From Candidatus Bathyarchaeota archaeon (lineage in GTDB: Archaea; Thermoproteota; Bathyarchaeia; Bathyarchaeales; Bathycorpusculaceae), in contig JAOZHY010000033.1 of assembly GCA_026014595.1 (NCBI GenBank), forward strand, positions 62,001 to 126,000: 64,000 nt of DNA, given 5' to 3'. The notes under the pieces are model-generated. The model searched no databases. It worked only from the letters and a program-made list of their open reading frames with translations, and was not told the DNA's origin. A program made the position numbers and the translations under genes. Positions 17,574 through 37,206 of the stretch are shown here, in pieces (position 1 is the first letter of the stretch; each line of letters begins with the position of its first letter).

Positions 17574-19637
17574 ATGAAAAATAGGAAAATGACAACCGCT
17601 TTCGCAGTGCTTGCAATTTTAACAATGCTGTTTTCAAGCGTCTATCTCGCGTTTGCCGTTCCTGCTAACCCAGCGCTCTTAGATCCAAAAACGATTCCAA
17701 AATACGTCAACCAACTAATAGCCAACATACCGGTCTATCAGCCTACAAACATTATCGATGGCGCCGGAAACGTAATAAGGCAAGATTACACGGTCGACAT
17801 GGTTCAACTCAGGGAGCAGATTCTGCCAACAGGCACACCGCTTGTGGGTGGAGTCGGAGATGGCAAAACAACAGTCTGGGGCTACGCAGGCAACTGTTAT
17901 GACGCAACAACAGGGAATAGTTTAGGCTATTTTGCCAATTCTCCATCGGCAACGTTCATCGCGACAAGAGGCATACCGAGCCAAGTGACATGGGTAAACA
18001 AAATCAGCCAACCGCAGTTTCTGCCAGTTGATCCGACAATACATTGGGCTAACCCAAACAACATGCCAATGAACATGCCTGGTATGACGCCAGGACTACC
18101 GCCACCTTATCCAGCATTTCCACCAGGATTCGACGGTACAGTAACAGCCGGCAACCCCAATGGATACAACGCTCAATGGCCTGTCCCGCTGGTTCCGCAC
18201 CTCCACGGCGGCGAAGTGCCGTCGTGGTCTGACGGAGGCCCTGATGCATGGTGGACTTACAACGGCGTACTAGGTGCAAGTTTTAGCACTAACGGAGCAT
18301 ATTCCACGACACCCACCGACCGCGCAGTGTACTATTACCCCAACGAGCAGAACCCAGCGAACCTCTGGTACCATGACCACGCATTAGGCATGACACGACT
18401 AAATGTAATGTCAGGCTTAGCTGGATACTACTTGCTAAAAGACCCGCCAGCCACAACACCAATCACTGCACCAACAGCCAACAATTTCGATCAATACTTG
18501 ACTCAACACTTCCCATACGGAGTTTCCGAAATTCCACTTGCTATACAGGATAGAACCTTCTACGCCACTGGCGAACTCTGGTTCCCCACAGTTGGAATCA
18601 ACCCGACGATTAACCCGTACTGGATGCCTGAATTCTTCGGCAACACCATAATGGTCAACGGCAAAGTCTGGCCTAACCTTGACGTGACACAGGGTTGGTA
18701 CCGCTTCCGCGTTCTTGACGGCTCTAACGCACGTTTCTACACGCTAAGCTTCAGCAACAAAATGCCCTTTACGGTGATAGGTTCAGACGGAGGCTACCTT
18801 ATGCAGCCAGCCGTAGTGACATCCTTGACGATTGCGCCAGGCGAGAGATACGACATACTAGTTGACTTCTCAGCGGTGCCCATAGGCACAAAAATAATTC
18901 TGACCAACACTGCAAGAGCCCCATTCCCAGGAGGAGCCCCCGCAGATCCGCAAACAGTCGGTCAAGTAATGCAATTCACCGTCGCAGCCGCCTCAGCGAA
19001 TCCGGGAGCAACAGCGCCAGTTCTACCGGCAACAGGGCTAAACCCGACGCTTCCAGTCGGCGCATTTCCAACACTCGCAGCACCTCCCGCCACTCAGACG
19101 CCACAGAGAAGAGTTCGCACACTCTTCGAGGTCATGGGTCCCGCTGGTCCAATGATGGTAACTGTAAACGGACAGCAATGGAGTGGAGATCTCAGTGAAA
19201 TGCCAAAGGATGGAACGACAGAAGACTGGGTCATCGTCAACCTCACAGGAGACACGCATCCCATACACTTGCACCTCGTAACCTTCCAGCTGTTGAGTCG
19301 CCAATCCTTCCAAGCCAACAAGTACATGAAAGCCTGGCTAGCACTCAACGCAGCTGGAGGTATGCCGCCATTCCCAACAAACTACATTCCCACAGAGTTG
19401 GATCCGACACCTTACTTGCAAGGCAAAGTCAAAACTGCCCTCCCCACAGAGATGGGCTGGAAAGACACCATACAAATGAACCCTGGCGAAGTCACCGTCA
19501 TACGCGTTAGATTCACGTCTAACACGGGCGTTGCTTACCCGTTTGACCCAACACAAGGACCAGGCTACGTTTGGCACTGCCACATCATCGACCACGAAGA
19601 CAACGAAATGATGCGCCCCTACAAAGTCGTACCATAG
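17574..19637 (+). CDS. Secreted multicopper oxidase (CotA/laccase-like)
   Basis: 687 residues with an N-terminal signal sequence (TAFAVLAILTMLFSSVYLAF, cleavage after AFA). All four copper-ligand blocks are present in order: HLHGGEVPSW, LWYHDHALGM, DTHPIHLHLVTF and WHCHIIDHEDNEMMRP, giving a type 1 copper with axial Met plus the trinuclear site. It oxidises phenolics, bilirubin-like compounds or metal ions with oxygen as acceptor; the 55-residue insert rich in Pro/Met/Gly around 155-185 (NNMPMNMPGMTPG) resembles Met-rich copper-binding segments. GGAG lies 10 bases before the ATG. Secreted outside the cell. A thymine-rich terminator follows the stop. An oxygen-using enzyme indicates at least microaerobic exposure. 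Confidence 0.95.
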   Translation: MKNRKMTTAFAVLAILTMLFSSVYLAFAVPANPALLDPKTIPKYVNQLIANIPVYQPTNIIDGAGNVIRQDYTVDMVQLREQILPTGTPLVGGVGDGKTTVWGYAGNCYDATTGNSLGYFANSPSATFIATRGIPSQVTWVNKISQPQFLPVDPTIHWANPNNMPMNMPGMTPGLPPPYPAFPPGFDGTVTAGNPNGYNAQWPVPLVPHLHGGEVPSWSDGGPDAWWTYNGVLGASFSTNGAYSTTPTDRAVYYYPNEQNPANLWYHDHALGMTRLNVMSGLAGYYLLKDPPATTPITAPTANNFDQYLTQHFPYGVSEIPLAIQDRTFYATGELWFPTVGINPTINPYWMPEFFGNTIMVNGKVWPNLDVTQGWYRFRVLDGSNARFYTLSFSNKMPFTVIGSDGGYLMQPAVVTSLTIAPGERYDILVDFSAVPIGTKIILTNTARAPFPGGAPADPQTVGQVMQFTVAAASANPGATAPVLPATGLNPTLPVGAFPTLAAPPATQTPQRRVRTLFEVMGPAGPMMVTVNGQQWSGDLSEMPKDGTTEDWVIVNLTGDTHPIHLHLVTFQLLSRQSFQANKYMKAWLALNAAGGMPPFPTNYIPTELDPTPYLQGKVKTALPTEMGWKDTIQMNPGEVTVIRVRFTSNTGVAYPFDPTQGPGYVWHCHIIDHEDNEMMRPYKVVP

Positions 19638-22458: not shown

Positions 22459-22887
22459 CTATTTCGGTGGTTTTTCTTCTTTTAGCAGACTCAGCATTTC
22501 GTCCACAGTTAAGATTTTTATTCCTCTGAATTCTTTCAGGGCAAGCAGGTGCTTGTCTCCTGATACTATGCAGTCGGCTTTGCCGTCAAACGCTGTTCTT
22601 AGAATGGTATCGTCGGCAGGGTCTGCCTTTACTACCTTGAATTTTGATTTTATCCGTGTGAATTTGGCTGTTTGATGTAAGGCTTCCAAGAACACTTTCA
22701 CATCGTACTCTTTCACGTACTTCGCAAATTTCCTGCGGCTGATTACGTCAACAAACTCGGAAACAATCTGGCTGGACAGAAGCAGCGTGAACTCGTTGGC
22801 TCTTGCTTTAAGCCATAGGTCTCTCGGTTTGCCTTTTACTATTAGACTCGATACTAGTACGTTGACGTCGAAGACTGCGACGCGCAT
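22459..22887 (-). CDS. PIN-domain ribonuclease (toxin-type, COG1569-like)
   Basis: 142 residues. The acidic PIN residues appear in order: AVFDVNVLVSSL (D7), SQIVSEFVDV (E43), PADDTILRTA and DCIVSGDKHLL. The VFD-x-N-x-LVSS start is typical of the larger COG1569 PIN group rather than short VapC. Acts as a metal-dependent RNase. Encoded ten bases after the AbrB-type gene on the same strand, so the two probably form a toxin-antitoxin or regulated nuclease pair. Confidence 0.88.
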   Translation of the reverse strand: MRVAVFDVNVLVSSLIVKGKPRDLWLKARANEFTLLLSSQIVSEFVDVISRRKFAKYVKEYDVKVFLEALHQTAKFTRIKSKFKVVKADPADDTILRTAFDGKADCIVSGDKHLLALKEFRGIKILTVDEMLSLLKEEKPPK

Positions 22888-22896
22888 AAGCTAACT

Positions 22897-23196
22897 TTAC
22901 GCCTTTTCTGGTTTTCTGGCTTTCTCTTTTCTGTATTGTTGTATTTCTGCTTCCACTTCGTCTTGCGTGAGAGCGCCGTACTTTGCGATTCTGGCGTCCA
23001 CCCTTCTATATAAGGCTTCGAGTTCTTTGGTTATGTCTGGTACCTCAAGCTTTTTCATGATTACTGCGTCTTCGTAGCCGTAAACTAACAGTTTGGTTTT
23101 TGGTCTTATCCCCAGCTTCTTTCGTATAGCCTGCGGGATTACAACCTGCCCTTTCTCGCTGACTACCGTGACCTCTGCCTTTTCTTTCTGCGCCAT
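22897..23196 (-). CDS. AbrB/SpoVT-type DNA-binding antitoxin
   Basis: 99 residues. The swapped-hairpin DNA-binding domain is VTVVSEKGQVVIPQAIRKKL followed by GIRPKTKLLVYGYEDAVIM. The C-terminal helix (ITKELEALYRRVDARIAKYG, then QDEVEAEIQQYRKEKAR) is where VapB-like proteins hold the PIN partner. Expected to bind its own promoter and neutralise the PIN protein. Confidence 0.9.
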   Translation of the reverse strand: MAQKEKAEVTVVSEKGQVVIPQAIRKKLGIRPKTKLLVYGYEDAVIMKKLEVPDITKELEALYRRVDARIAKYGALTQDEVEAEIQQYRKEKARKPEKA

Positions 23197-23433: not shown

Positions 23434-24768
23434 TTACTTTGATTTAATGAAGCTTAAAATTGAATTAAAACTCAGATTTTGTGGCTGTTGCTCGTTGATT
23501 ACCTGCAATGTTATAGTACCGTTCGGGGTCAGTACCGTATCACCTGCTGAGTTTGCGCACTGCAGTGAAGACACAAAACTATGTAAACGCTGAGCGTCGG
23601 TAAAAAGGATGCCTTTGTGCATGGTAGAACTGTAATCCGCTGATGCATTAAAAATTCTGACACCATTCCCGTTTGCGAAGAGTATGTCTTCATTTTGGGA
23701 AAAAGTCTTCTGAATTTGCACTGTTGAGTATCCTGCTATCACCGCTGTGGAAACAAGAACACTCAAGAGCAATACTGTGGCAATCAAGTGTCGAGACTTT
23801 TTAATGGGCTTAGAAGTCACGGCGTTAATGTTTTGCACTCTTTGTGATATTTGCGGGTGCGAGGCGAGTATCCCATGTCTATGCGCGAGAGGCGACACAA
23901 GAAATAAACCTGCAGAAAGCCGTTCAGTGAGGCTCGCCTTAGGAAACGCCAGTGCTACTGACTCGATCTTTGTAAGCACATTTGTCATCAATTTGGGTTT
24001 GTCCAGTAAAGCCACGCCTTTCTCGTCAGCGAGCAACTCCCGCTGCCTTTGGGCATGGGCTGCAACAAAGTATGAGAGGGGGTTAAAAAAGGAAAGAATA
24101 TTTAAAGTGTACGATACCGTTCTGAACAGGTAATCGTTTGCTTTAACATGAGCCAATTCGTGAGAAACAACCGCCTCCAACTCTTCAGGGTCAAGCATTT
24201 TTAGAAGCCCTAAAGAGAAAACCACAATCGTATTCTGTCCATAGCCCACCGTAAAAGCGTTAGGCATCAAATCGTCGATTAGACCAACTTTCGGCTCGGG
24301 AATACCTAGTTTATGAGCGGTTTCTTTCACTTTTTCTTGTAGCGGCATGTACTCGTCCTCAGCCATCATAACAACATGGAATCGCCGCATAGCTATTTTC
24401 TTCCCGAAAACCGCCATAAGCACAAGAAAGCCTCCAGCTGCGATTATTCCACTTATGCATAACAAGCCTGTAAATGAAAAAACGCTGGGACCAACAAACA
24501 TTATGCCAAAACCGGGTGGAACTGGAATTTGATAGTTTGACGGCGAAAAAGCCCCTGCTGGAATTAGGATTTGGGGATGAAAATACAATAATGTGAAAAC
24601 TGGGACAAACAGCGGTATGAGCCATAAAATGCTTTGATTCTTTCGGGAAAGGTAGGGGTTGAATTTTAGGAAGATTTTGATGCAGACAAAAGCTATTGAA
24701 AGGAACACTAAAGAATAGAAGAAGTATGGTTGAAATATTTGAATTAAAAAATCGGTTAAATTCACCAT
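23434..24768 (-). CDS. M56-family membrane metallopeptidase (BlaR1/MecR1-like)
   Basis: 444 residues. Three helices in the first 120 residues, then the peptidase domain with MPNAFTVGYGQNTIVVFSLG and the zinc motif AVVSHELAHVKANDY (HExxH), the third ligand probably in RELLADEKG. A further helix near 335 (LIATVLLLSVLVSTAVIAGY) leads to an extracytoplasmic C-terminal part of about 90 residues that is much shorter than, and unlike, the penicillin-binding sensor of BlaR1. It lies seven bases after the BlaI-type gene. Likely senses an outside signal and cleaves the repressor. Confidence 0.92.
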   Translation of the reverse strand: MVNLTDFLIQIFQPYFFYSLVFLSIAFVCIKIFLKFNPYLSRKNQSILWLIPLFVPVFTLLYFHPQILIPAGAFSPSNYQIPVPPGFGIMFVGPSVFSFTGLLCISGIIAAGGFLVLMAVFGKKIAMRRFHVVMMAEDEYMPLQEKVKETAHKLGIPEPKVGLIDDLMPNAFTVGYGQNTIVVFSLGLLKMLDPEELEAVVSHELAHVKANDYLFRTVSYTLNILSFFNPLSYFVAAHAQRQRELLADEKGVALLDKPKLMTNVLTKIESVALAFPKASLTERLSAGLFLVSPLAHRHGILASHPQISQRVQNINAVTSKPIKKSRHLIATVLLLSVLVSTAVIAGYSTVQIQKTFSQNEDILFANGNGVRIFNASADYSSTMHKGILFTDAQRLHSFVSSLQCANSAGDTVLTPNGTITLQVINEQQPQNLSFNSILSFIKSK

Positions 24769-24775
24769 ATTTTGG

Positions 24776-25257
24776 TCACTTCTTCTTTTCTTTTAAGGTT
24801 TTATCGATTTTTTCTTTTAATGCCTCTAGCTGTTTATCATCCATTGCAACTTTCTCAACAAGGCACGTAGTGACAAGTTCATCAAAGTTGTTCAAGAGGC
24901 TGGTGAGCACTTGGCGGACTGCGGCTTCCTTAAAGTTTGACTCTTCCATTTTTGGCCAGTAAACGTAGTAGAGGTAGGCGCCGCCTTTGCCTTTTTCAAT
25001 TCGCCGGTCAAGCAAACCTTTCTCGTAGAGTCTATCCATTGTGTTCATAACGGTGGTGTAAGCGACCTGCTTTTTCTTTTTCAGTTCTTCAAGCACTTCG
25101 CGCACTGTAATAGGCCTTTTCTTTGAACACCATATGATTTCGATTATGCTTGCTTCCAGCGGTCCTAGGAATGCTTCGAGTTGTTTTCCTTCAATATTGT
25201 ACTGGGGTAATGAGGTTTTTTTCTCTGACGACGTTTTACACTTCCCTCATGTACCAT
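24776..25257 (-). CDS. BlaI/MecI-family repressor, N-terminus displaced by an apparent frameshift
   Basis: The intact frame from GTG 25105 gives 109 residues (VREVLEELKKKKQVAYTTVM, NTMDRLYEKGLLDRR, GGAYLYYVYWPK), lacking helix 1. That helix is encoded in the same frame upstream (FLGPLEASIIEIIW, CSKKRPIT), open to 25246 but with no ATG, GTG or TTG. An ATG at 25257 in another frame enters this frame if the run of seven A at 25216-25222 is read as eight. That ATG lies about 21 bases after a TATA-like AAAGTTAAAAG, suiting a leaderless transcript. So the gene is either assembly-damaged, mutated, slippage-decoded, or uses a rare start. Represses its own gene and the divergent exporter. Confidence 0.85.
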
Positions 25258-25268
25258 TAGAGATGGTA
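25252..25268. promoter_or_regulatory. Palindrome 1, probable BlaI operator at the blaI start
   Basis: TACCAT-TAGAG-ATGGTA covers the predicted blaI start codon and transcription start, immediately downstream of a minus-strand TATA-like element. Confidence 0.55.
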
Positions 25269-25345
25269 GGCTTTTAACTTTTTCCAAAATCAGGTTGCGT
25301 AACAAACAAGGAGCCATTCCTGCTGCTTGCTCGGCTCGTGACTAC

Positions 25346-25361
25346 CTACCATCAGCGGTAG
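25346..25361. promoter_or_regulatory. Palindrome 2, probable BlaI operator
   Basis: CTACC-ATCAGC-GGTAG, midway between the divergent genes and just upstream of the exporter TATA box; half-site matches the flanking palindromes. Confidence 0.4.
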
Positions 25362-25366
25362 TAAAT

Positions 25367-25375
25367 CTTATAAAT
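25367..25375 (+). promoter_or_regulatory. TATA box of the exporter operon
   Basis: CTTATAAAT, about 44 bases before the ATG at 25415, puts the start of transcription near 25397, directly after palindrome 3. Confidence 0.6.
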
Positions 25376-25396
25376 CCTACTACACATAATAGTAGG
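25376..25396. promoter_or_regulatory. Palindrome 3, probable BlaI operator at the exporter promoter
   Basis: CCTACTA-CACATAA-TAGTAGG begins where the TATA box ends, so a bound dimer would block RNA polymerase. Half-sites resemble palindrome 1 (CTACCAT). Confidence 0.6.
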
Positions 25397-25414: not shown

Positions 25415-26731
25415 ATGGGTATTCTAACAAGAGCAACCAGAAACATTGCCAGAAGAAAAACAAGAGCCCTACTAGTAATCGTAGCACTAAGCCTTGCCCT
25501 AGCAATGATAGTATCTATTCCGCCAAGCATCACCGCAAGCCAAGAAGCAACCCAAAAAACTATTGACAATCTAACAACCGCCGCCAAAATTGTTGCTTCA
25601 ACAGTAAACATGGCAGCAACCCAACTGGATTGCAACCTCCCATTGACCCTTCGTACAGACGCAGGTCCTTATCACAACGAAACCACCTTTGAACGACCAC
25701 TCATGAATATTACAGAGTACTCCAATCTCACCTACGTACAACATGTGACATACGTTGTACCCGTGCTGGAACAAAGAGCATATGATTGGCCATATACAGT
25801 CTATGGTGTACCTTTAGATGATGCCGAACTACTGAGCAGTTATCCGATACTTCTTCCAGCCAACATTACTGCTGGGCGAAATTTGCAGGCGGGCGATAGC
25901 GGCGTTGTCGTTTTGCATGAGCGCATTGCGAATCATTTTGGTATCGCCGTAGGTGAAACAGTTAACATTTTTGGGCGGGACTTTGAGGTAGTGGGTATTG
26001 AAGGCCAAGAAGCCCTCAATACCACTTATGCTACCATGAGTCTATCTGATGCCCAAGCCATAACTAACACAACTGGGCAAGCGTCGACATTCATAGTCTT
26101 TGCTGACAGCGTGGATAACGTGTACGCCGTCAAAGAACAAATCGTTGGTGCATACCCTAAGCTAACAGTTACGATAGCTCAAACTTTGCTGAACCAAGTT
26201 TATCAAATGCAACGTCAAACCGAGGAGCAATTACAACAAGCGCATGAAACAATGAACCAAATAGAAAGCACCGGCATAGTGGAAATGGGCATTATCACCA
26301 TTGCAGACAGCGCAATAATACTGTTCATAATGCTATATACCGTCCGTGAAAGAACCAAAGAAATCGGCACTCTCAAAGCATTAGGCGCTAGTAACACAAC
26401 AATCCTTGGGCAGTTCATGCTCGAAGGCATACTATTAAGCCTAATAGCTGGCATAGTTGGCATAGTAATCGGCATATTCGGCGCAACCTCATTAGCCAAT
26501 ATACTGCTTCCACAACCGATAACCCAAACTGGAATTGGCATTACAACATCAGGAAGTGGAACATGGGGAGGAAGTGGATCCCTAACAGCAACATCTATCT
26601 CTGTAACCATAACGCCGGAACTTATGCTATTTGGATTAGGTTTTTCAGTATTGTTAGGTGCACTTGGAAGCTTGTATCCTGCTTGGAGAGCAGCAAGAAC
26701 CCGACCAGCGGAGGCAATGCGCTATGAATGA
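25415..26731 (+). CDS. ABC transporter permease, MacB/FtsX type
   Basis: About 438 residues. N-terminal RKTRALLVIVALSLALAMIV helix, then a roughly 260-residue external MacB-type core (AGDSGVVVLHERIANHFGIA, GETVNIFGRDFEVVGIEG), then the FtsX domain with three helices and the conserved ERTKEIGTLKALGAS loop that contacts the ATPase, ending YPAWRAARTRPAEAMRYE. Such permeases drive export or mechanotransmission rather than import. ATG 25415 is preferred over upstream in-frame starts because the promoter and palindrome lie at 25367-25396. The gene end overlaps the ATPase gene by eight bases. Confidence 0.9.
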   Translation: MGILTRATRNIARRKTRALLVIVALSLALAMIVSIPPSITASQEATQKTIDNLTTAAKIVASTVNMAATQLDCNLPLTLRTDAGPYHNETTFERPLMNITEYSNLTYVQHVTYVVPVLEQRAYDWPYTVYGVPLDDAELLSSYPILLPANITAGRNLQAGDSGVVVLHERIANHFGIAVGETVNIFGRDFEVVGIEGQEALNTTYATMSLSDAQAITNTTGQASTFIVFADSVDNVYAVKEQIVGAYPKLTVTIAQTLLNQVYQMQRQTEEQLQQAHETMNQIESTGIVEMGIITIADSAIILFIMLYTVRERTKEIGTLKALGASNTTILGQFMLEGILLSLIAGIVGIVIGIFGATSLANILLPQPITQTGIGITTSGSGTWGGSGSLTATSISVTITPELMLFGLGFSVLLGALGSLYPAWRAARTRPAEAMRYE

Positions 26732-27464
26732 ACTCGTACTTAAAATCGAGAACTTGACCAAGACCTACAAGCTTAGCAAACGAGATGTGCAGCCCTTAAT
26801 CGACCTGAACCTTGAGGTCAAAAGAGGCGAATTCACAGCCATCATGGGACCTTCAGGCTCAGGCAAAACCACACTGCTTAACATCATCGGCTGCATCGAC
26901 AAACCAACAAGCGGCACAGTACTAATTGACAACATAGACATTGCACGCTTGCCAGAATCGCAACTCTACAAGATACGCAGAGACAAAATAGGCTTCATAT
27001 TCCAAAACTTCAACCTGCTGCCATACCTCAACGCCAGAGAAAACGTAGAGTTAGCCATGGAACTCTCAGGTAAATTCAAAGGACAAAGAAAACAAAGAGC
27101 ATTGGAACTGCTTGCCATGGTTGGCTTATCAGAAAGAGAACAACATAGACCTCAAAGGTTAAGCCAAGGCGAACAGCAAAGAGTCGCCATCGCCCGAGCA
27201 TTGGCCAATGACCCAGCCATAATCTTAGCGGATGAACCAACAGGAAATTTGGACAAAAACAGCAAAGAGGAAATCGTGAAGCTACTGGCAAATCTTAACC
27301 AAAAACAAGGCGCTACAATCATAATGGTAACACACGATGAGCACATTGCAGCATCTGCGGAAAGGGTACTTTTTCTTAGCGACGGAAAAATCCAAGACAA
27401 ACAAGCTCAAAAAGGAGACTCTTCCGCAGCCAACCGAAAACAAAGCAGTAAGGTGAGAATGTGA
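26724..27464 (+). CDS. ABC transporter ATP-binding protein (LolD/MacB type)
   Basis: 246 residues. Walker A MGPSGSGKTTLLN, Q-loop FIFQNFNLLPYLNARENV, signature LSQGEQQRVAIARAL, Walker B IILADEPTGNLD and switch His in IIMVTHDEH are all intact. The LNARENVELAM block and the DEPTGNLD pattern place it in the LolD/MacB/FtsE group that partners with FtsX-type permeases. The start ATGAATGA overlaps the permease stop. It powers the exporter and is co-regulated with it by the BlaI-type repressor. Confidence 0.95.
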   Translation: MNELVLKIENLTKTYKLSKRDVQPLIDLNLEVKRGEFTAIMGPSGSGKTTLLNIIGCIDKPTSGTVLIDNIDIARLPESQLYKIRRDKIGFIFQNFNLLPYLNARENVELAMELSGKFKGQRKQRALELLAMVGLSEREQHRPQRLSQGEQQRVAIARALANDPAIILADEPTGNLDKNSKEEIVKLLANLNQKQGATIIMVTHDEHIAASAERVLFLSDGKIQDKQAQKGDSSAANRKQSSKVRM

Positions 27465-28582
27465 AACGAGGGAAAACGAAGGCTTTGAGAGTCGGTGGCA
27501 TCCTTCTCATCTTTTTCCTCTATGCTTTTGCATTATTACTCCAGCCAATTCGAGCAGAGAATACGGCAACAATAACCGTTGGAGGCATGCCTTCGGCTGT
27601 GGCCATAACTCCTAATGGAGAATATGTCTATGTTACGAATGGACATAATGTTTCTGTGATAAGCACTGCCACGAATAAGGTGACAACAACTGTATCTGCT
27701 GGAAGCAACCCCTCTAATGTGGCTATAACTCCTAATGGGGAATATGTCTATGTTGCGAATGGTGGTGACGGTACAGTTTCAGTGATAAACAGAGTAACGA
27801 ATAAGGTGACAGCAACGGTAACCGTTGGAGGCACCCCTTCCGCCGTGGCTATAACGCCCAACGGGGCATACGCCTACGTCGCAAAAGGTGATATTGTAAA
27901 TAATAAGGGGGTTGGCATGGTTTCGGTGATAAACACAGCTTCTAACACCGTAATGACGACGATAACCGTTGGAAGCATCCCTACGTCTGTGGCAATAACC
28001 CCCAACGGAGAATACGCATATGTCACGAATGGCGGCAGCGGTACAGTTTCAGTAATAAGCACAGCTACGAATAAAGTGATGGCAACGGTAACAGTCGGAA
28101 TGAATCCTAGCGGAGTGGTTATAACGTCAAATGGCGCACACGCCTACGTTACTAATCTTGCTAGCAACTCGGTCTCGGTCATAGACACAGCTACTAACAC
28201 AGTAACGGCGACGATTACCGGTTTAAGTTCTCCTAACGGTATAGCTTTAACACCCAACGATGAATACGCATATGTTACAAATGGAGGCAATAATTCGGTC
28301 TCGGTAATAAGCACAACCACGAACACAGTGAATGCCACGGTAACCGTTGGCATCAACCCTTATGGTGTAGCTATAACGCCCAACGGCGAATACGCCTATG
28401 TTACAAATCTTATCAGCGGTACAGTCTCGGTGATAAACACAGCTACGAACTCGGTGCTAACTGACTCCTCAGCCACATCTGGTCAAGAATTTCCTGCCCA
28501 TTTGCTAATAATCGCGGTGGTTGGCTTTGCGATAGTTGTCGTTTCCGTGATTGTCATGGCGAAGAGGAAATCTGGACTATAA
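27461..28582 (+). CDS. YVTN-repeat seven-bladed propeller surface protein
   Basis: 373 residues. A signal helix (GILLIFFLYAFALLLQPI), then seven repeats of about 42 residues, each with AITPNGEYAYVTN or a close variant followed by VSVI-x-TATN-x-V, making one complete propeller; then a C-terminal anchor helix (LIIAVVGFAIVVVSVIVMA) with a KRKSGL stop-transfer. The protein is held outside the membrane. Its GTG overlaps the ATPase stop by four bases, so it is the third cistron of the exporter operon. It may bind the exported or sensed ligand, or surface glycan (inference). Confidence 0.92.
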   Translation: MKRGKTKALRVGGILLIFFLYAFALLLQPIRAENTATITVGGMPSAVAITPNGEYVYVTNGHNVSVISTATNKVTTTVSAGSNPSNVAITPNGEYVYVANGGDGTVSVINRVTNKVTATVTVGGTPSAVAITPNGAYAYVAKGDIVNNKGVGMVSVINTASNTVMTTITVGSIPTSVAITPNGEYAYVTNGGSGTVSVISTATNKVMATVTVGMNPSGVVITSNGAHAYVTNLASNSVSVIDTATNTVTATITGLSSPNGIALTPNDEYAYVTNGGNNSVSVISTTTNTVNATVTVGINPYGVAITPNGEYAYVTNLISGTVSVINTATNSVLTDSSATSGQEFPAHLLIIAVVGFAIVVVSVIVMAKRKSGL

Positions 28583-28709: not shown

Positions 28710-29573
28710 ATGAGTGAAAAGCTCACAAAAGTCCAATTCACCAACCTCGACAAAATCCTCTTCCCCAAAATCACAATCACAAAAGCACAGGTAATCGAAT
28801 ATTACATAAAAATCGCCCCGAAAATGCTCAAGTTTCTCGCCAATCGACCGCTGGTGCTCACAAGGTTTCCAGACGGCGTGGACAAACAAGGTTTCTACGA
28901 GAAAGACGCTCCTGAAGGCACACCCTCATGGGTGAAAACCGCTACGCTTTACTCGGAAACCGCCAAACGCGACGTACACTACATTCTATGCAACGACCTT
29001 GACACGCTCATCTGGCTCGCAAACCTGGCAGCCATCGAAATCCACATTCCCTTATCCACAGTTGACCACCGAGACAAGCCCGACTTCGCCTTCTTCGACG
29101 TAGACCCTGAACCGCCAGCCAGGTACGAAGATGCTGCCGAGGTGGCGCTTTTGCTCAAGGAAAAACTAGACCAGCTTGGGCTTGAGCCGTACGTGAAAAC
29201 CTCGGGGAAGAAAGGGCTGCACGTCTTAATCCCTATCGTCCGTGAATACACTTTCAGGGAAACAAGAGCCTTCGTCCACACAGTCGGAAAGCAGTTATCG
29301 AAAGAACACGCGATGGTTGTCTCGGAGTTCTCTGAAACCAAGAGGCCTGGAAAAGTCTTCATAGATTATCTGCAGAACTCGCATGGGCGAACCATGGTGT
29401 GCCCCTACAGCGTGAGAGTGGCGCCGACAGCCACGGTTTCAACCCCATTAGACTGGAGTGAAGTTAAGAAAAGAATAAAGCCAGCCGAGTTTAATATTTT
29501 AAACGTAACGAGTCTATGGAAAGACCCGTGGAAAGACATTTTTGAGAACAAGCAAAAATTGGAGGTTAAATAA
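28710..29573 (+). CDS. ligD: LigD polymerase (primase-polymerase domain) of end joining
   Basis: 287 residues, the usual size of stand-alone LigD-Pol. LTNLDKILFPK-type start (VQFTNLDKILFPKITITKAQ), catalytic acids in FAFFDVDPEPP, nucleotide-binding TSGKKGLHVLIPI, and third acid in GKVFIDYLQN with HGRTMVCPYSVR. Fills gaps with ribo- or deoxynucleotides at broken ends. Directly abuts the Ku gene with no spacing. GGAGG lies 12 bases before the ATG. Confidence 0.95.
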   Translation: MSEKLTKVQFTNLDKILFPKITITKAQVIEYYIKIAPKMLKFLANRPLVLTRFPDGVDKQGFYEKDAPEGTPSWVKTATLYSETAKRDVHYILCNDLDTLIWLANLAAIEIHIPLSTVDHRDKPDFAFFDVDPEPPARYEDAAEVALLLKEKLDQLGLEPYVKTSGKKGLHVLIPIVREYTFRETRAFVHTVGKQLSKEHAMVVSEFSETKRPGKVFIDYLQNSHGRTMVCPYSVRVAPTATVSTPLDWSEVKKRIKPAEFNILNVTSLWKDPWKDIFENKQKLEVK

Positions 29574-30374
29574 GTGGCTAAAAAACCGAAACCCGCTCAG
29601 CCGTCAAGAAGAGCCATCTGGTCAGGAAGCATAACCATTGGTTTAGTTAACGTTCCAGTCAAGCTTTACGCCATGATATACGACCGTGGAATAAACTTCC
29701 ATTTCCTGCACCAAACTGACAATCAACCGTTAAAATACGAGCGCGTATGCACCAAAGACGGAAAAATCGTTCCTTGGCAAGAAGTCGCCAAAGGCTATGA
29801 AGTCGCCAAAAACGAGTACGTTGTCTTTGACAAAGAAGAACTTGAAGCCGTCAAGCCAGAATCCGACAAACGCATCCGCATCGACAAATTCGTCGACTAC
29901 TTCTCCGTCGACCCAACATACTTCAACACCACATACGCCCTGATGCCGGACAAAAGCAACGACGCCTACAGCCTGCTGCTCGCCGCACTCCAGAAAATGG
30001 GCAAGGCTGGCGTAGGAAGAATAACACTGCGCACCAAAGAGTATCCTGTTCTGGTGCACGCGTACAAGGGTGCACTCGTGCTGACCACCCTGCGATACGC
30101 TTACGACGTAGTGGATCCACAAGCCTTTGAGGAGTTGAAGGAGCTTAAGGCGCCTGAAAAAGCGGAGCTTGACTTGGCTATGAAAATCGTCAAGGACCTT
30201 TCAGGCGAATTCGACATAACCGAGTACGAGGACACCTACAAGCAGAAAGTAGAGGAACTTATCGCGAAGAAGCTAAAAGGCGAGAAAATAGTGGTGGAGA
30301 AACCTGCAGAGGAAGAAGTCAAAGGGCTCATGGTTGCCTTGCGCGAGACGCTTAAGCAGCTGGAAAAGAAATGA
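29574..30374 (+). CDS. ku: Ku homodimeric end-binding protein
   Basis: 266 residues. RRAIWSGSITIGLVNVPVKL at the N-terminus and the bridge/pillar segments VCTKDGKIVPWQEVAKGYEV, YFSVDPTYFNTTYAL and GALVLTTLRYAY are diagnostic for prokaryotic Ku. The lysine-rich C-terminus is short, so no extended DNA-binding tail. Binds double-strand ends and recruits the polymerase and ligase encoded on either side. GTG start directly after the polymerase stop; the gene end overlaps the ligase ATG. Confidence 0.96.
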   Translation: MAKKPKPAQPSRRAIWSGSITIGLVNVPVKLYAMIYDRGINFHFLHQTDNQPLKYERVCTKDGKIVPWQEVAKGYEVAKNEYVVFDKEELEAVKPESDKRIRIDKFVDYFSVDPTYFNTTYALMPDKSNDAYSLLLAALQKMGKAGVGRITLRTKEYPVLVHAYKGALVLTTLRYAYDVVDPQAFEELKELKAPEKAELDLAMKIVKDLSGEFDITEYEDTYKQKVEELIAKKLKGEKIVVEKPAEEEVKGLMVALRETLKQLEKK

Positions 30375-31771
30375 GCCGCAACTACAAGCCCATGCTCGCT
30401 AAACTCGCATCCAAGCCTTTCTCGGATAAGGATTGGGTGTTCGAGGTTAAGTGGGATGGGTTCCGAGCCATAGCATACGTCAACCAGGAACTGAGCCTGA
30501 GAAGCCGCAACCAGAAAGAACTGAAATACAATTTCCCAGAACTATTAGAGCTGACAGAGCTAACGCGCAACGTGGTTCTTGACGGCGAAATCATCGTCAT
30601 GAAAGAAGGCAAAGCCGATTTTCAAGCGCTACTGGAAAGAGGAAAAGCCGTTTCCCCGACCGAAATTCAACTAGCGAACCTTCAAACGTCAGCAGTGTAC
30701 GTGGTATTTGACATCCTCGAGAAAGACGGAAACCCCCTTCTCAATTTGCCCTTGATGGAGAGAAAGAGAATTCTGCGCAACTCGGTTCAGGAAGGCAAAC
30801 ACGTTTTGCTCTCAGATGTCGTGGAGGAGAACGGCGAAGCCTATTACGCAGCGGCTTTGCAGAAAGGCTTGGAAGGCATCATGGCGAAGAAAAAAGACAG
30901 CCCATACGAACCCGGCGTCAGAAGCGGAAACTGGCTGAAAATAAAAAAGCTACGCTCCTGCGACTGCGTCATCTTCGGCTACACGAAAGGCACAGGTGCC
31001 AGAGCCAAAACATTCGGCGCTCTGCTGCTTGGGCTTTACAACAGCGAAGGCAAACCCGTTTACGTTGGCAAGGTTGGAACTGGCTTCTCACGGGAAAAAC
31101 TGCGCACGCTACTGGAAGCGTTCAAAACGCTGGAGACGGATTCAGCTCCCTTCACAGTAGACATCTCTGACGAGATAACGTGGCTTAAGCCCAAACTGGT
31201 CTGCGAAGTAGGCTATCAGGTTGTTACGCGAGACGTGAGGCTACGGATGCCGCGGTTCCTCGGCTTGCGGGAAGACAAGCTTCCTTCGGAATGCACACTG
31301 GACCAAATAGTTAAGGGCGAACTTGCGGAGTACCAGTCAAAACGCGACTTCAACGTCACAGCAGAACCCAAAGGCGGAGGAAAAAAGGATGCAACAACGG
31401 CGAAGATTTTTGTGGTCCAGGAACATCACGCACGAAGATTGCATTATGATTTACGTTTGGAGAAGAATGGTGTTTTGAAAAGCTGGGCTGTGCCAAAGGG
31501 GATTCCGGAAAGCTCAGACGAGAAGCGGTTGGCGGTTGAAACCGAGGACCATCCACTTGAGTATGCAGATTTTGAGGGGACAATTCCAGAGGGGCAGTAT
31601 GGTGCTGGCACCGTGACGATATGGGACAAAGGCTCATATGAAACGAAGGTGTGGGACGAAAAAATGATAGAGGTCATGCTCAACGGCGAAAGGCTGAAGG
31701 GGCGCTACGTGTTGGTGAGGCTGAAGAAAGCTGGAGAAAAAAGTTGGCTGCTGCTTAAAGGAAAGGAGTAG
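30371..31771 (+). CDS. ligD: LigD ATP-dependent DNA ligase fused to 3'-phosphoesterase
   Basis: 466 residues. Ligase motif I FEVKWDGFRAI with nucleotidyl Lys 27, motif III-IV region (VYVVFDILEKDG, GLEGIMAKKKDSPY) and motif V NWLKIKKLRSCD, then an OB-fold. From about residue 345 a phosphoesterase domain follows: FVVQEHHARRLHYDLRLE, LKSWAVPKG, HPLEYADFEGTIP and YGAGTVTIWDKG. The order ligase then phosphoesterase, with the polymerase as a separate gene, differs from Mycobacterium (Pol-PE-Lig) and Pseudomonas (PE-Lig-Pol). ATGA overlap with ku. Confidence 0.95.
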   Translation: MSRNYKPMLAKLASKPFSDKDWVFEVKWDGFRAIAYVNQELSLRSRNQKELKYNFPELLELTELTRNVVLDGEIIVMKEGKADFQALLERGKAVSPTEIQLANLQTSAVYVVFDILEKDGNPLLNLPLMERKRILRNSVQEGKHVLLSDVVEENGEAYYAAALQKGLEGIMAKKKDSPYEPGVRSGNWLKIKKLRSCDCVIFGYTKGTGARAKTFGALLLGLYNSEGKPVYVGKVGTGFSREKLRTLLEAFKTLETDSAPFTVDISDEITWLKPKLVCEVGYQVVTRDVRLRMPRFLGLREDKLPSECTLDQIVKGELAEYQSKRDFNVTAEPKGGGKKDATTAKIFVVQEHHARRLHYDLRLEKNGVLKSWAVPKGIPESSDEKRLAVETEDHPLEYADFEGTIPEGQYGAGTVTIWDKGSYETKVWDEKMIEVMLNGERLKGRYVLVRLKKAGEKSWLLLKGKE

Positions 31772-32541: not shown

Positions 32542-34566
32542 TTAGGCTTCTACTGGGTACCATTTCTTGATTTCTTCGACAGGCTCTTTTGACTTGTAGT
32601 GGTCGGAAAGCATGCAGTCCAACGACTTGGGGCATGCTAAGCATGAATCTGGTATGCCTTCGCCTTTCTTACGTCGATTAAGATAACCGAAATAGTGCTT
32701 GCACTCGGAATCGGATGGCTTGTTTACCTCTTCCGCATCTGCGGTCTTTCTTTCTGCCTCTGCCCGTTTCGCCAACTGCGCTGCCAGCCTTTCGACCTTT
32801 TGCTTTACCTCCAATCGCCGCGCTTCCTTTCGTTCTTCCTCTAACCGCTCCGCTTCTCGCCGTTCCACTTCCTTTCGTTCAGCCTCTAAACGTTCTGCCT
32901 TTAGTTCCTCCTCCAACCATTGGGCTTTCTGTTCTGCCTTCAATTGTTCCGCCTCTAGCCGCTCCAATTCCTTGTTTTGCGCTTCTAACCGTTCCGCCAT
33001 CTGCCCTGAAGCTAACCGCTCTGCTTTTAGCTCTGATTCTAATTGTGTTGCTTTCCCCTCTGCTATCAGTAGTTCCGCTTCTAACCTTTCCGTTTTCCGT
33101 TCCGCTTCCATCAGTTCCGTCTCTAATCTTTCCACTTTCCGCTCTATCGTCATCCTTTGTGCTTCTACTCGTTCTGCTTCCAGTCTTTCCATCTCTTTTC
33201 TTTCCGCTTCGAGCCGTTCTGCTTCTAACCGTTCTGCCCTTCGCTCTTCCTCCAAAAGCTCTAATTTCCGCCGTTCCTCCAGCAGTTGCGACTCCAAAAG
33301 TTTCGTCTTTCTTTCTGCCTCTTCCAGCTCTGACTCTAGTTGCCCTGTTTTTTGTTTTGATTCTTCGCGTTCTGCCTCCAGTTCCGCCTCCAACTGTTTT
33401 GCCGTTTCTTCGGCTTCGGAAAGTTTTGTTTCTAGTTGTTTTGTTTTTCGTTCAGCTTCTAACTGGTCTGTCTTTCGCTCTGTAGCCAGTCGTTCTACTT
33501 CTCTTTGTATTTCTTCCCGTTCCGCCTCCAATAATCGCAGCTTTCTTTCTGCGTCAGCCCGTTCAATCTTCATCTGCTCTGTTTTCTTTCGTTCTGCCAG
33601 CAGTTCTGACTCCAGCTGTTTTGCTTTTTGTTCTGTTTCCAGCAGTTTCGCTTCTAGCAGTTTTGTTTTCTTTTTCGCCTCTACACTTTCTGCCTTTCTT
33701 TTTGCTTCCAGCTGTTGCATTTTCTTTCGCTCTGCCTTCAGCCGTTCTGCCTGCTGCCGCTCAGATTCCTGTCGTTCCGCCTCTAACCGTTCTATTTCTA
33801 GCTGCGCTTCCTTTAGTTGTGCTTCCAATTGTTCCGCTCTTTGTTCTGCTTCTAACCGTTTAGTTTCTGCCTGCTCGACTTTTTGTTCTGCTTCGTTTAG
33901 CGCGGTCCCTAACCGTTTCGCTTTTCTTTCCGACTCCAAGAGCTCTGCCGCTATTTGCTTTGCTTTGTGCTCTAAATCAAGACGCTCTGCCTCTATTTGC
34001 GCGACTTCTTGTTCTGCCTTTTCGCGTTCGGCTAGCAGTTCCTCTTCTAACTGCTTTATCTTGTGCTTTGCCTCCAAACGTTCCGCCCGGCGTTCTTCCT
34101 CCAACCGCGCCATTTTCTGTTCTGCTTCTAAGCGCTCTGCCTCTGCCCGTTCTGCCGCTTGTACTTCCGCCATTCGTTGCGCTTCTATCTGCTCTTCCTT
34201 CTGCTTTGCTGCTAATCGCGAAGCCGCAAGCTCTGATTCCAACCTCTTCGCCCTTTTCTCTGCTTTTAGCCGCTCTGCTTCCAGCCGCTCTGACTTCTTC
34301 CGTTCTGCCTTTAGCTCAGCCTCTAAAGCATCTGCTTTTTGCTCCGCTGCCAAGCGTTCGGCTTCTTTTCTCTTGAGGTCCTCTTCTGTTGGTCCCCGCT
34401 TCTTTGTTTTCTCGTTTCCCAGCACCGTCTCCATATTAACAAGTGTTTGACAGGTTGGACACAAGTAGTAAACCAGTTTTTTAGGTCTGGTAAAAACGCT
34501 CTTACAATTAGGATTTGAACAACAGTAGCTTATAACTTCACGCTTCTCTTCGCCTGTCTTCTGCAT
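32542..34566 (-). CDS. Giant coiled-coil protein with N-terminal zinc ribbon
   Basis: About 674 residues. Residues 15-45 form a CxxxC...CxxC zinc ribbon (SYCCSNPNCKSVFTRP, YLCPTCQTLV). Residues about 60-610 are an uninterrupted Glu/Arg/Lys/Ala/Leu helix built from variants of RLEAERxxAE, either a coiled coil or a charged single alpha-helix. The C-terminal 50 residues have HYFGYLNRRKKGEGIPDSCL plus a second cysteine cluster (CxxC and a later C, LACPKSLDC). So two metal-binding ends are joined by a possible 80-nm rod. Function unknown; scaffold or tether is inference. Convergent with the end-joining operon. GTG 34569 is an alternative start. Confidence 0.8.
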   Translation of the reverse strand: MQKTGEEKREVISYCCSNPNCKSVFTRPKKLVYYLCPTCQTLVNMETVLGNEKTKKRGPTEEDLKRKEAERLAAEQKADALEAELKAERKKSERLEAERLKAEKRAKRLESELAASRLAAKQKEEQIEAQRMAEVQAAERAEAERLEAEQKMARLEEERRAERLEAKHKIKQLEEELLAEREKAEQEVAQIEAERLDLEHKAKQIAAELLESERKAKRLGTALNEAEQKVEQAETKRLEAEQRAEQLEAQLKEAQLEIERLEAERQESERQQAERLKAERKKMQQLEAKRKAESVEAKKKTKLLEAKLLETEQKAKQLESELLAERKKTEQMKIERADAERKLRLLEAEREEIQREVERLATERKTDQLEAERKTKQLETKLSEAEETAKQLEAELEAEREESKQKTGQLESELEEAERKTKLLESQLLEERRKLELLEEERRAERLEAERLEAERKEMERLEAERVEAQRMTIERKVERLETELMEAERKTERLEAELLIAEGKATQLESELKAERLASGQMAERLEAQNKELERLEAEQLKAEQKAQWLEEELKAERLEAERKEVERREAERLEEERKEARRLEVKQKVERLAAQLAKRAEAERKTADAEEVNKPSDSECKHYFGYLNRRKKGEGIPDSCLACPKSLDCMLSDHYKSKEPVEEIKKWYPVEA

Positions 34567-34800
34567 CACTTCAGCGCTCTTTCATCATGAAGACTGCCTC
34601 AGAAACCTATTTAGCGCTTGTTTAAGTAAACTCAGTATTAAGCATCCAATTTTGCACTTGAGTTAAAACAGAATACGCAAGCATCAGGGGTTTAGAATTC
34701 ATCACTACACTGCTGGTTAAGCGATCTAAATCGTCTGGAATTGAACTAACCGATGGTTTTATTTTCAAAATTCAGCATACTCTTATTATTGAGGGTACCG

Positions 34801-37206
34801 ATGGGAAGGCAGAAGCGGCTGTGGCTGCTAATAATCCCCATCTCACTCATCTTTATTCAACTATACTGCATATCGAAAGCCTCAAGCGCTAACGCCGTTT
34901 TAGGCACAGACGAGTGGACGATGTTCCGTCATGACTCAACCCACAGCGGCTACACAACCTGTAAAATTCCAACCAACTCCGTCAAACTCTTGTGGACTTG
35001 CAAAACGTGGAAAGGTGTGCGGTGGTCTTCGCCCGCAGTGGCTAACGGCTGCGTTCTCGTGGGCTCGAGGGATTGGCGCGTCTACTGCCTCAACTCCTCC
35101 AACGGCAAACCATTCTGGAACTACTCAACAGGAAATGAAATACACTCGTCGCCAGCCATCTACAACAATTCCGTCTACGTGGGTTCAGACGACGGCTACG
35201 TTTACTGTATTGACATCGCCACAGGAAAGCCTGTTTGGAAAACGGAAATCGGGGGCTTAGTGCGGTCTTCTCCCACAATTGTGGACGGGCGCCTCTACAT
35301 AGGCTCCGGAAACCACGATGCGCTCTGCCTTAACGCTTCAAACGGAGCTAAAATCTGGCGGTACCCAACCTCGCACCGTGTGCAATCGTCCCCTGCTGTC
35401 TCAGACGGCGTGGTCTACGTTGCCACCGATGACTATCATGTTTACGCTTTTAATGAATCTACAGGTGAAGAATTATGGCGCACACACACTGGAAGTTTTA
35501 TCTCCTCTCCCAGCGTATGCAACGGCTACGTTTACGTGGGCTCCATAGACGGCTACATATGTGCTCTTAACGCTTCCACGGGCGCCAAGATTTGGGAGTA
35601 CCAAACGGAAGGGTCAGTTTACTCTTCCCCCGCTGTCGCTTACGGATGTGTCTACGCAGGCTCCGATGACAACAACGTTTACTGCCTAAACGCTTCAAAC
35701 GGCAAGGAAATATGGCGGAGCCCAACTGGGTACTGGGTCAGGTCTTCGCCCGCGGTTGCGGACAGCAACGTGTATGTGGGCTCTGAAGACTACAGCATCT
35801 ATTGTTTTGAAGCGTTTACTGGAGCAACGAGGTGGAGTTACACAACTGAAAGCTCTGTAGATTCTTCCCCAGCAATAGTAAACGGCAAGCTTTACGTTGG
35901 TTCCAGTGACTATCGCATCTACGCCTTCGCCCTTGACGATTCAACCGTTCAATCCGTGCTCACGCAAGCCAACAACTCTTCACCGTGGACCACAATTGCC
36001 TTTGATGCAGTTGCGTGCGTTGTGGCGGCAACGATTACTTTTGCAATCATGCACTTTCTTAACTCGACTAAACAAAACGCTGCAGCATCGTTTGACCAAA
36101 AACGCCCTTGGTTCCTAGAACATGCCAATGCCATTTGCATTTTGGCAATTCTTGCTTTTTCAACAATATTCTTCGTAAATCTGGGAAGCGGACCGCTGTG
36201 GGTGACAGACGAGCAAACATATTCTCAATGGGCATTCCACATTTTCAAGACCGGAGACTACCTGACTCCATGGGCTTATGGCACATTAGACATAGGCATT
36301 GAGAAGCCGCCGCTCTTCATGTGGCTGATTTCTCTTGCCTACCAAGTCTTCGGCGTTAACAACTTCGCCTCGAGGATTTGGAGCGCCGTATTCGGCACGT
36401 TATCCTTAGTTCTCGTCTTCTACCTAGGAAAGAAACTTTATAACGTGCCCGTTGGGCTTCTTTCGGCGCTAGTGTTAGGCACGTTCACAACCTTCTATAT
36501 GTTTGCAAGACACGCCATGACCGATGTTCCCTTCGTCTTCTTCATTTTAGCTAGCGTATACTTTTTGGTTCTGAGCGAAAAAACGGAAGACACTAACCGA
36601 TACACAGCGTTAGGCGGCGTATTCTTCGGTTTGGCGTTCATGACAAAGCAGCTGATAGCCCTACTGATTCCGCTAATCACCTTTTCTTATTTCACGGCGA
36701 CAGGGAGAGGCATCAGGTTTTTCTTTACCAAACGTTTCGCTCTTTTTTGGCGAGTGGGACTTCTGGTTATTGCGCCTTGGGTGATTTACATGATTCTGCG
36801 TTTTGGACCGGACTTTTGGCATTCTTTTTTTGTTTATTCCGGAATCATACGAGCAAGCAGCACCATTGAAAGCCATGCGGGCGGCTACCTTTACTATTTC
36901 AGCTACTTGGTTAATAACGAAAACCCGTTTTGGGTAGTTCTGCTACCTTTTGGGGCGGGGCTTTGCGCGTTCAACGCGGCTTTTAAGCGTTTGAAAGGAG
37001 ACACTTTAATCATCGCGTGGATAGCGACTGTGCTTGCGGTGTTCACTTTTGCCCAAACAAAACTTGAATGGTACATTCTGCCAGCTTTTCCAGCCTTCGC
37101 CATCGCCATAAGCAGCTTCCTATATCAAGTGGCAAAGAAAATACAACTCACCATACGCTCTTTAATTCTAAAAATAAACAGCATATTGCTCATGTTTTTT
37201 CCATAA
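34801..37206 (+). CDS. PQQ-type beta-propeller fused to GT39 glycosyltransferase
   Basis: About 801 residues. After a signal helix, residues 40-385 form eight or so propeller repeats of about 40 residues (RSSPAVADSNVYVGSEDY, SSPAVAYGCVYAGSDDN, each with LNASxGxxIW), as in PQQ/BamB propellers. A helix near 410 follows, then a GT39 domain: GPLWVTDEQTYSQWAFH (catalytic DE in the first outer loop), IEKPPLFMWLISLAYQVFGV, ARHAMTDVPFVFFILA and at least nine helices. GT39 enzymes move a lipid-phosphate sugar onto proteins or lipids. The propeller would face outward beside the active site. ATG 34801 has GAGGG five bases upstream. Confidence 0.88.
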   Translation: MGRQKRLWLLIIPISLIFIQLYCISKASSANAVLGTDEWTMFRHDSTHSGYTTCKIPTNSVKLLWTCKTWKGVRWSSPAVANGCVLVGSRDWRVYCLNSSNGKPFWNYSTGNEIHSSPAIYNNSVYVGSDDGYVYCIDIATGKPVWKTEIGGLVRSSPTIVDGRLYIGSGNHDALCLNASNGAKIWRYPTSHRVQSSPAVSDGVVYVATDDYHVYAFNESTGEELWRTHTGSFISSPSVCNGYVYVGSIDGYICALNASTGAKIWEYQTEGSVYSSPAVAYGCVYAGSDDNNVYCLNASNGKEIWRSPTGYWVRSSPAVADSNVYVGSEDYSIYCFEAFTGATRWSYTTESSVDSSPAIVNGKLYVGSSDYRIYAFALDDSTVQSVLTQANNSSPWTTIAFDAVACVVAATITFAIMHFLNSTKQNAAASFDQKRPWFLEHANAICILAILAFSTIFFVNLGSGPLWVTDEQTYSQWAFHIFKTGDYLTPWAYGTLDIGIEKPPLFMWLISLAYQVFGVNNFASRIWSAVFGTLSLVLVFYLGKKLYNVPVGLLSALVLGTFTTFYMFARHAMTDVPFVFFILASVYFLVLSEKTEDTNRYTALGGVFFGLAFMTKQLIALLIPLITFSYFTATGRGIRFFFTKRFALFWRVGLLVIAPWVIYMILRFGPDFWHSFFVYSGIIRASSTIESHAGGYLYYFSYLVNNENPFWVVLLPFGAGLCAFNAAFKRLKGDTLIIAWIATVLAVFTFAQTKLEWYILPAFPAFAIAISSFLYQVAKKIQLTIRSLILKINSILLMFFP

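Follow-up and report, generated by a model that had tools for sequence, protein, structure and literature searches.

An archaeal BlaI-type divergon with a conserved 17-bp operator in the promoter of an ABC exporter and an anchored beta-propeller

The closest described counterparts of the locus analysed here are bacterial. In the bla divergon of Bacillus licheniformis, three operators lie between blaP and blaI-blaR1, and BlaI is released by a peptidoglycan dipeptide (PMC3305447). In Staphylococcus aureus, BlaR1 cleaves BlaI directly, at an Asn-Phe scissile bond (PMC9834060). Mycobacterium tuberculosis pairs the BlaI-family repressor Rv1846c with a BlaR1 homologue, a zinc peptidase without a penicillin sensor (PMC9834060). 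The Clostridium thermocellum repressor BlaI_0696 recognizes inverted GTCTAT repeats that are 5 nt apart and occur in pairs; BlaI_0696 and BlaI_1845 are both autoregulated and have very small regulons (PMC8457756).

The window, meaning the whole stretch of 64,000 nucleotides that was analysed, is part of a 2.06-Mb archaeal genome. Among named relatives, Candidatus Bathyarchaeota archaeon A05DMB-2 is the closest; the two BlaI proteins are 95% identical. As the initial annotation had proposed, a membrane zinc peptidase (23434-24768) and a BlaI/MecI-family repressor (24776-25234) are encoded on the minus strand, and an FtsX/MacB-type ABC permease (25415-26731), an ABC ATPase of the LolD/MacB type (26724-27464), and an anchored, seven-bladed beta-propeller with seven YVTN repeats (27461-28582) are encoded on the plus strand. 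Three palindromes are located in the intergenic region of about 180 bp that separates blaI from the permease gene. This layout, with the blaI-peptidase operon facing its target and several operators in between, recurs in four further loci.

The locus thus resembles the bla divergon of B. licheniformis and S. aureus (blaP or blaZ versus blaI-blaR1) in its adjacent repressor and membrane zinc peptidase genes, its divergent target, and its three dyad operators. However, the archaeal target is an ABC exporter with a surface propeller and not a beta-lactamase, the promoters are of the archaeal TATA/BRE kind, the peptidase lacks a penicillin-binding domain and is closer to HtpX, and the cleavage residues differ. 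The archaeal pair shares with Rv1846c and its partner a BlaI-family repressor and a zinc peptidase without a penicillin sensor, and the Rv1846c structure (2g9w) was matched by our model; targets and domain of life differ. The paired inverted repeats of a TAT-ended hexamer with a 5-nt gap are as in C. thermocellum, whereas the archaeal half-site is TACYAY rather than GTCTAT, and in C. thermocellum the promoters are bacterial and the regulon does not revolve around an exporter and HtrA. As separate elements, BlaI repressors, BlaR1-like peptidases, and MacB/LolC exporters are familiar. In the open-access literature that we searched, we did not find an archaeal BlaI/BlaR-type regulon or a dedicated archaeal envelope-stress circuit; an archaeal BlaI divergon that combines an HtpX-like partner, a defined operator, and an exporter/propeller/HtrA regulon appears new against that literature.

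The operator and its promoters

On comparison with relatives, the three palindromes proved to be copies of a single 17-bp site, TACYAY-N5-RTRGTA. Operator 1 (TACCATTAGAGATGGTA, 25252-25268) is located directly downstream of the blaI TATA box, and operator 3 (TACTACACATAATAGTA, 25378-25394, within an extended palindrome at 25376-25396) directly downstream of the exporter TATA box; both had been placed correctly, each below a TATA-like box, in the initial annotation. The second palindrome had been reported at 25346-25361, one base out of register. The homologous 17-mer is operator 2 (TACCATCAGCGGTAGTA, 25347-25363), and with this correction all three sites share the same form. All three are supported by conservation and by the genome scan.

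The TATA-like box of blaI, TTAAAA (25272-25277, minus strand), has the purine-rich, BRE-like GGAAAAAG upstream and is conserved in five genomes. The TATA box of the exporter operon, TTATAAA (25368-25374, plus strand), is located between operators 2 and 3, and its TTATAA core is kept in five genomes. In the exporter promoter, the right arm of operator 2 directly adjoins the BRE position, and operator 1 covers the expected transcription start of blaI. This placement would suit repression by blocking TBP/TFB and RNA polymerase, combined with autoregulation.

The whole genome contains three exact copies of the operator, all in this promoter, compared to one copy of a reversed control pattern. When one mismatch was allowed, the window had 4 matches against 0.79 expected, a number reached in 0 of 100 shuffles. 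In the genomes G001 and G131, exactly three exact sites were found genome-wide, again all in the homologous promoter, and G133 and G134 have all three sites at the homologous locus. Genome-wide, G039 has two exact sites, which precede blaI and the permease gene, respectively. In the window's own genome, the scan gave no further exact operators that would point to additional members of the regulon. The HtrA homologues of this genome are without an operator, even within two mismatches; the regulon there is therefore just this divergon. Additional motif matches in G128, G129, G136, and others were attributed to chance; most of them fall within long open frames. Four members of the window's family that yielded no close BlaI relative have just 1 to 4 scattered matches, the level of the control pattern.

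The initial annotation had proposed looking for the gene order and the palindromes in related genomes, and all three sites are indeed kept in four relatives. Sites 2 and 3 are spaced 31 bp apart in all five loci with a three-site promoter. In the promoter alignment of the five genomes, 36 of 36 arm columns are invariant with respect to purine or pyrimidine and 26 of 36 are identical; identical columns amount to 1/15 in the spacers and 26/78 in the rest of the promoter. The difference between the arms (26/36) and the spacers plus other promoter columns (27/93) is significant (Fisher p = 9e-6). In each of the 13 close BlaI loci, which come from 11 genomes, the site preceding blaI matches the pattern exactly.

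Genes behind the operator in close and distant relatives

The permease contains FtsX (63 bits) and MacB_PCD (44.5 bits) Pfam domains, and the ATPase was assigned to the LolD/MacB type by Pfam and NCBIfam, as in transporters of the MacB/LolC superfamily. LolC and LolE are the nearest named models for the permease; unlike LolCDE and MacB-type transporters proper, the archaeal pair does not reach the curated thresholds set for the named families (70 bits for LolCE, where 362 are required). The propeller (TIGR02276, seven stretches) has an N-terminal signal and a C-terminal transmembrane anchor, both kept in relatives. It is found within the permease-ATPase operon in G000, G001, and G131, and alone behind its own operator in G128; we therefore consider it part of the regulon.

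Other genes are also preceded by the operator. In G126, the permease-ATPase pair is on a contig apart from blaI and has an operator before its TATA box. In G039 and in a second locus of G133, the third gene after the ATPase encodes an HtrA-type protease instead of the propeller. In a second group of loci, from four relatives, a further exact operator is located 17-62 bp upstream of a small ArsR-like winged-helix gene (L046, 3547-3903; L049, 8172-8471; L076, 3751-4065; L084, 1326-1640), which suggests that the regulon of one branch includes a second-tier regulator. The common theme of these targets is an exporter together with an extracytoplasmic anchored protein or protease.

For a blind test, the pattern was fixed first, and BlaI relatives were then sought phylum-wide, which gave nine new loci from other families. 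An exact site pair is present in the blaI promoter, facing a divergent operon, in 7/9 of these distant loci; the divergent operon encodes a surface protein, an ABC ATPase, and an ABC-2 permease. An exact site was also found just upstream of a nearby HtrA-type trypsin-PDZ gene in 5/9, and one more locus has this site with one mismatch. In G329, the only three exact sites are all accounted for, with the HtrA gene and its site on a separate contig. The second HtrA paralogues that we checked in the distant genomes are without an operator. Judged from these sequences, conservation of the operator and regulon across families of the phylum is supported.

In the Methanomassiliicoccus MAG L098, BlaI is 53% identical and is accompanied by the same peptidase and permease-ATPase, with two exact sites between the peptidase and permease genes. 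This set may reflect transfer between distant archaea or a mis-binned contig. In a sample of the phylum, 18/398 genomes contain the system at E <= 1e-20.

Several other genes were observed around the divergon. A complete bacterial-type end-joining set, consisting of a LigD primase-polymerase, Ku, and an ATP-dependent ligase with a 3'-phosphoesterase domain, is encoded at 28710-31771; in G001 (L038), homologues of Ku and the LigD polymerase are likewise near the divergon. A beta-propeller of the PQQ type is joined within one protein to a mannosyltransferase-like (PMT) membrane domain at 34753-37206, an odd fusion. The minus strand at 32542-34569 encodes a 675-residue protein whose N terminus carries zinc-ribbon-like cysteines; nearly all of its length is coiled-coil repeats rich in Ala, Glu, and Arg (AERLEAERK). 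A multicopper oxidase with a signal peptide (17574-19637) is unexpected for a lineage usually thought to be anaerobic.

The repressor, its start codon, and the peptidase

The Penicillinase_R domain of BlaI scores 77.8 bits (E 1.1e-21) against a Pfam cut-off of 22.6. The predicted model (pLDDT 79.5) has the winged helix and the C-terminal dimerisation helices of BlaI/MecI, and its best 13 PDB matches are MecI, BlaI, or Rv1846c, with E values from 1e-5 to 1e-4. Conservation and genome-wide specificity of the sites point to dyad operators in both its own and the target promoter, as in this family. The residues aligned with the Asn-Phe cleavage bond are Cys-Leu in the window and Cys-Phe in L044 and L098; in the window, P1' is thus still hydrophobic (Leu), and P1 is a conserved Cys. 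The Asn-Phe bond, with a P1' Phe that hardly varies, characterizes the staphylococcal members that are cleaved and not the BlaI/MecI family as a whole. We also considered the Asn-Phe in an 'NNF' stretch as the cleavage site; however, the alignment with MecI puts the scissile bond at Cys-Leu, and conservation of Asn-Phe was therefore dropped as proof of proteolysis.

In G000, G131, G133, and G134, the part of the blaI frame that precedes the DNA-binding domain, counted from the upstream stop onward, has no ATG, GTG, or TTG. Where other relatives start with one of these codons, six genomes (including L038-L042) have an ACG, which is at 25234-25232 (minus strand) in the window. A Shine-Dalgarno-like GAGGG (25244-25248, minus strand) is located 9 nt before this codon, and GAGG is kept before the ACG in relatives; ACG makes up 13% of the Thr codons in these genes. 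The ATG within operator 1 is out of frame in the window and missing in G133, so the ACG was preferred over it as the start. The conserved ACG is thus the likely start codon of blaI, judging by this comparison, and such a weak start would hold repressor levels low. A conserved ACG start would be very unusual for archaea.

The peptidase matches M48 (90.1 bits) and M56 (58.5 bits, cut-off 31) in Pfam. In NCBIfam, it scores 100 bits with the best HtpX model (cut-off 355) and 39 bits with BlaR1_generic (cut-off 400). The HExxH motif is at residues 203-207, and H203, E204, H207, and E244 are invariant in 17 relatives; the structural model matches ZMPSTE24/Ste24 and the cryo-EM structures of S. aureus BlaR1. 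Although the M56 domain with HExxH and a downstream Glu is as expected for BlaR1/MecR1, we do not class the protein with these; by score it is nearer to HtpX, yet below the HtpX equivalog cut-off. An M56 protein without a beta-lactam sensor domain had been described here at first. Pfam indeed gave no match to a penicillin-binding sensor domain, but the protein has its own variable C-terminal segment (about residues 365-444, 80 residues) after the last helix (about 328-360). In comparison with G131, this segment is only 25% identical, whereas the peptidase domain is 75% identical. The segment is probably extracellular, and its fast divergence is the pattern expected of a sensor; the model has low confidence there, and no sensor fold could be named from it. 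Just downstream of the peptidase gene, a MazE/AbrB-type antitoxin and a PIN-domain protein (22459-23196, minus strand) likely form a toxin-antitoxin module.

A proposed switch and its alternatives

We propose that the locus is an archaeal version of the bla divergon, in which we infer the binding of BlaI, the action of the peptidase on it, the trigger, and the exported cargo. BlaI dimers would bind the three operators, with operator 1 covering the blaI start region and operators 2 and 3 bracketing the exporter TATA box three helical turns apart. Bound BlaI would exclude TBP/TFB and RNA polymerase from both promoters, so that blaI-peptidase and exporter-propeller would be co-repressed. A trigger from outside, probably damage to the envelope or to surface proteins, would be sensed by the C-terminal segment and/or the outer loop of the peptidase and would activate the cytoplasmic zinc site. 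The activated peptidase would remove BlaI, the exporter and the anchored propeller would be made, and rising BlaI would reset the switch.

Because of the bla divergon layout and the likeness to the C. thermocellum site, a BlaI repressor that represses both operons and is set free by the partner peptidase in response to a signal from outside is the best explanation as a whole, to which we assign a probability of about 0.7. Repression through these operators is very probable. Release of BlaI by proteolysis is rated lower, as somewhat favoured, because a ligand can also release BlaI (PMC3305447). The initial annotation had suggested an archaeal repressor system for an exporter and a propeller; a BlaI-type repressor with operators in the exporter/propeller promoter, conserved across families, is the part of this suggestion that stands. 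Its guess of envelope stress was strengthened by the finding that, in other lineages, HtrA protease genes also have this operator upstream. With HtrA and surface proteins among the targets, a surface or envelope stress response is the favoured function. Only tentatively would we extend this to a phylum-wide archaeal envelope-stress response, in which BlaI and an HtpX-like peptidase would use one 17-bp operator for exporters, surface-anchored proteins, and HtrA, with damage to surface proteins or the S-layer, not a beta-lactam, as the trigger, and with one branch also limiting the repressor through the ACG start.

MacB/FtsX-type exporters often serve in drug or peptide export, and the locus could instead be a detoxification switch, in which the peptidase would sense an antimicrobial peptide or lipid-active compound and the exporter would remove it from the cell, with no general surface-stress response. 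The patchy distribution of the system (38/257 genomes of the class at E <= 1e-10) is as for resistance genes, and the rapid change in the peptidase C-terminal segment also fits; however, the operator at HtrA proteases and surface proteins elsewhere suits quality control of surface proteins better, and we regard detoxification as rather unlikely.

It is also possible that BlaI represses through the operators and is released by a small cytoplasmic ligand, with the peptidase making that ligand or performing a separate membrane quality control. The dipeptide that releases the B. licheniformis repressor (PMC3305447) is a precedent, the window BlaI does not have the Phe of the known cleavage site, and the peptidase is HtpX-like. 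Against this, S. aureus BlaR1 alone cleaves BlaI (PMC9834060), blaI and the peptidase gene adjoin in nearly all relatives, and the aligned bond retains a hydrophobic P1' next to the conserved Cys at P1; we consider release by a ligand unlikely. A reading of the palindromes as chance repeats, or as RNA hairpins with no regulatory role, in an AT-rich intergenic region where short inverted repeats are common, is hardly credible and was rejected on the genome scan, the window shuffles, and the conservation of the arms only, together with the constant 31-bp spacing around the TATA box and a recurrence in distant relatives, for which the pattern had been fixed before their sequences were seen.

For the proposed divergon, with release of BlaI by its peptidase, the question is now directly testable in vitro: a repressor and a putative signal transducer in the membrane are at hand, the operator is defined, and the list of targets is short. 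The locus shows how a BlaI-type repressor is fitted to TATA/BRE promoters, and it suggests a surface-signalling module without a penicillin sensor, older or more widely shared, of which the bacterial beta-lactam response would be one application.
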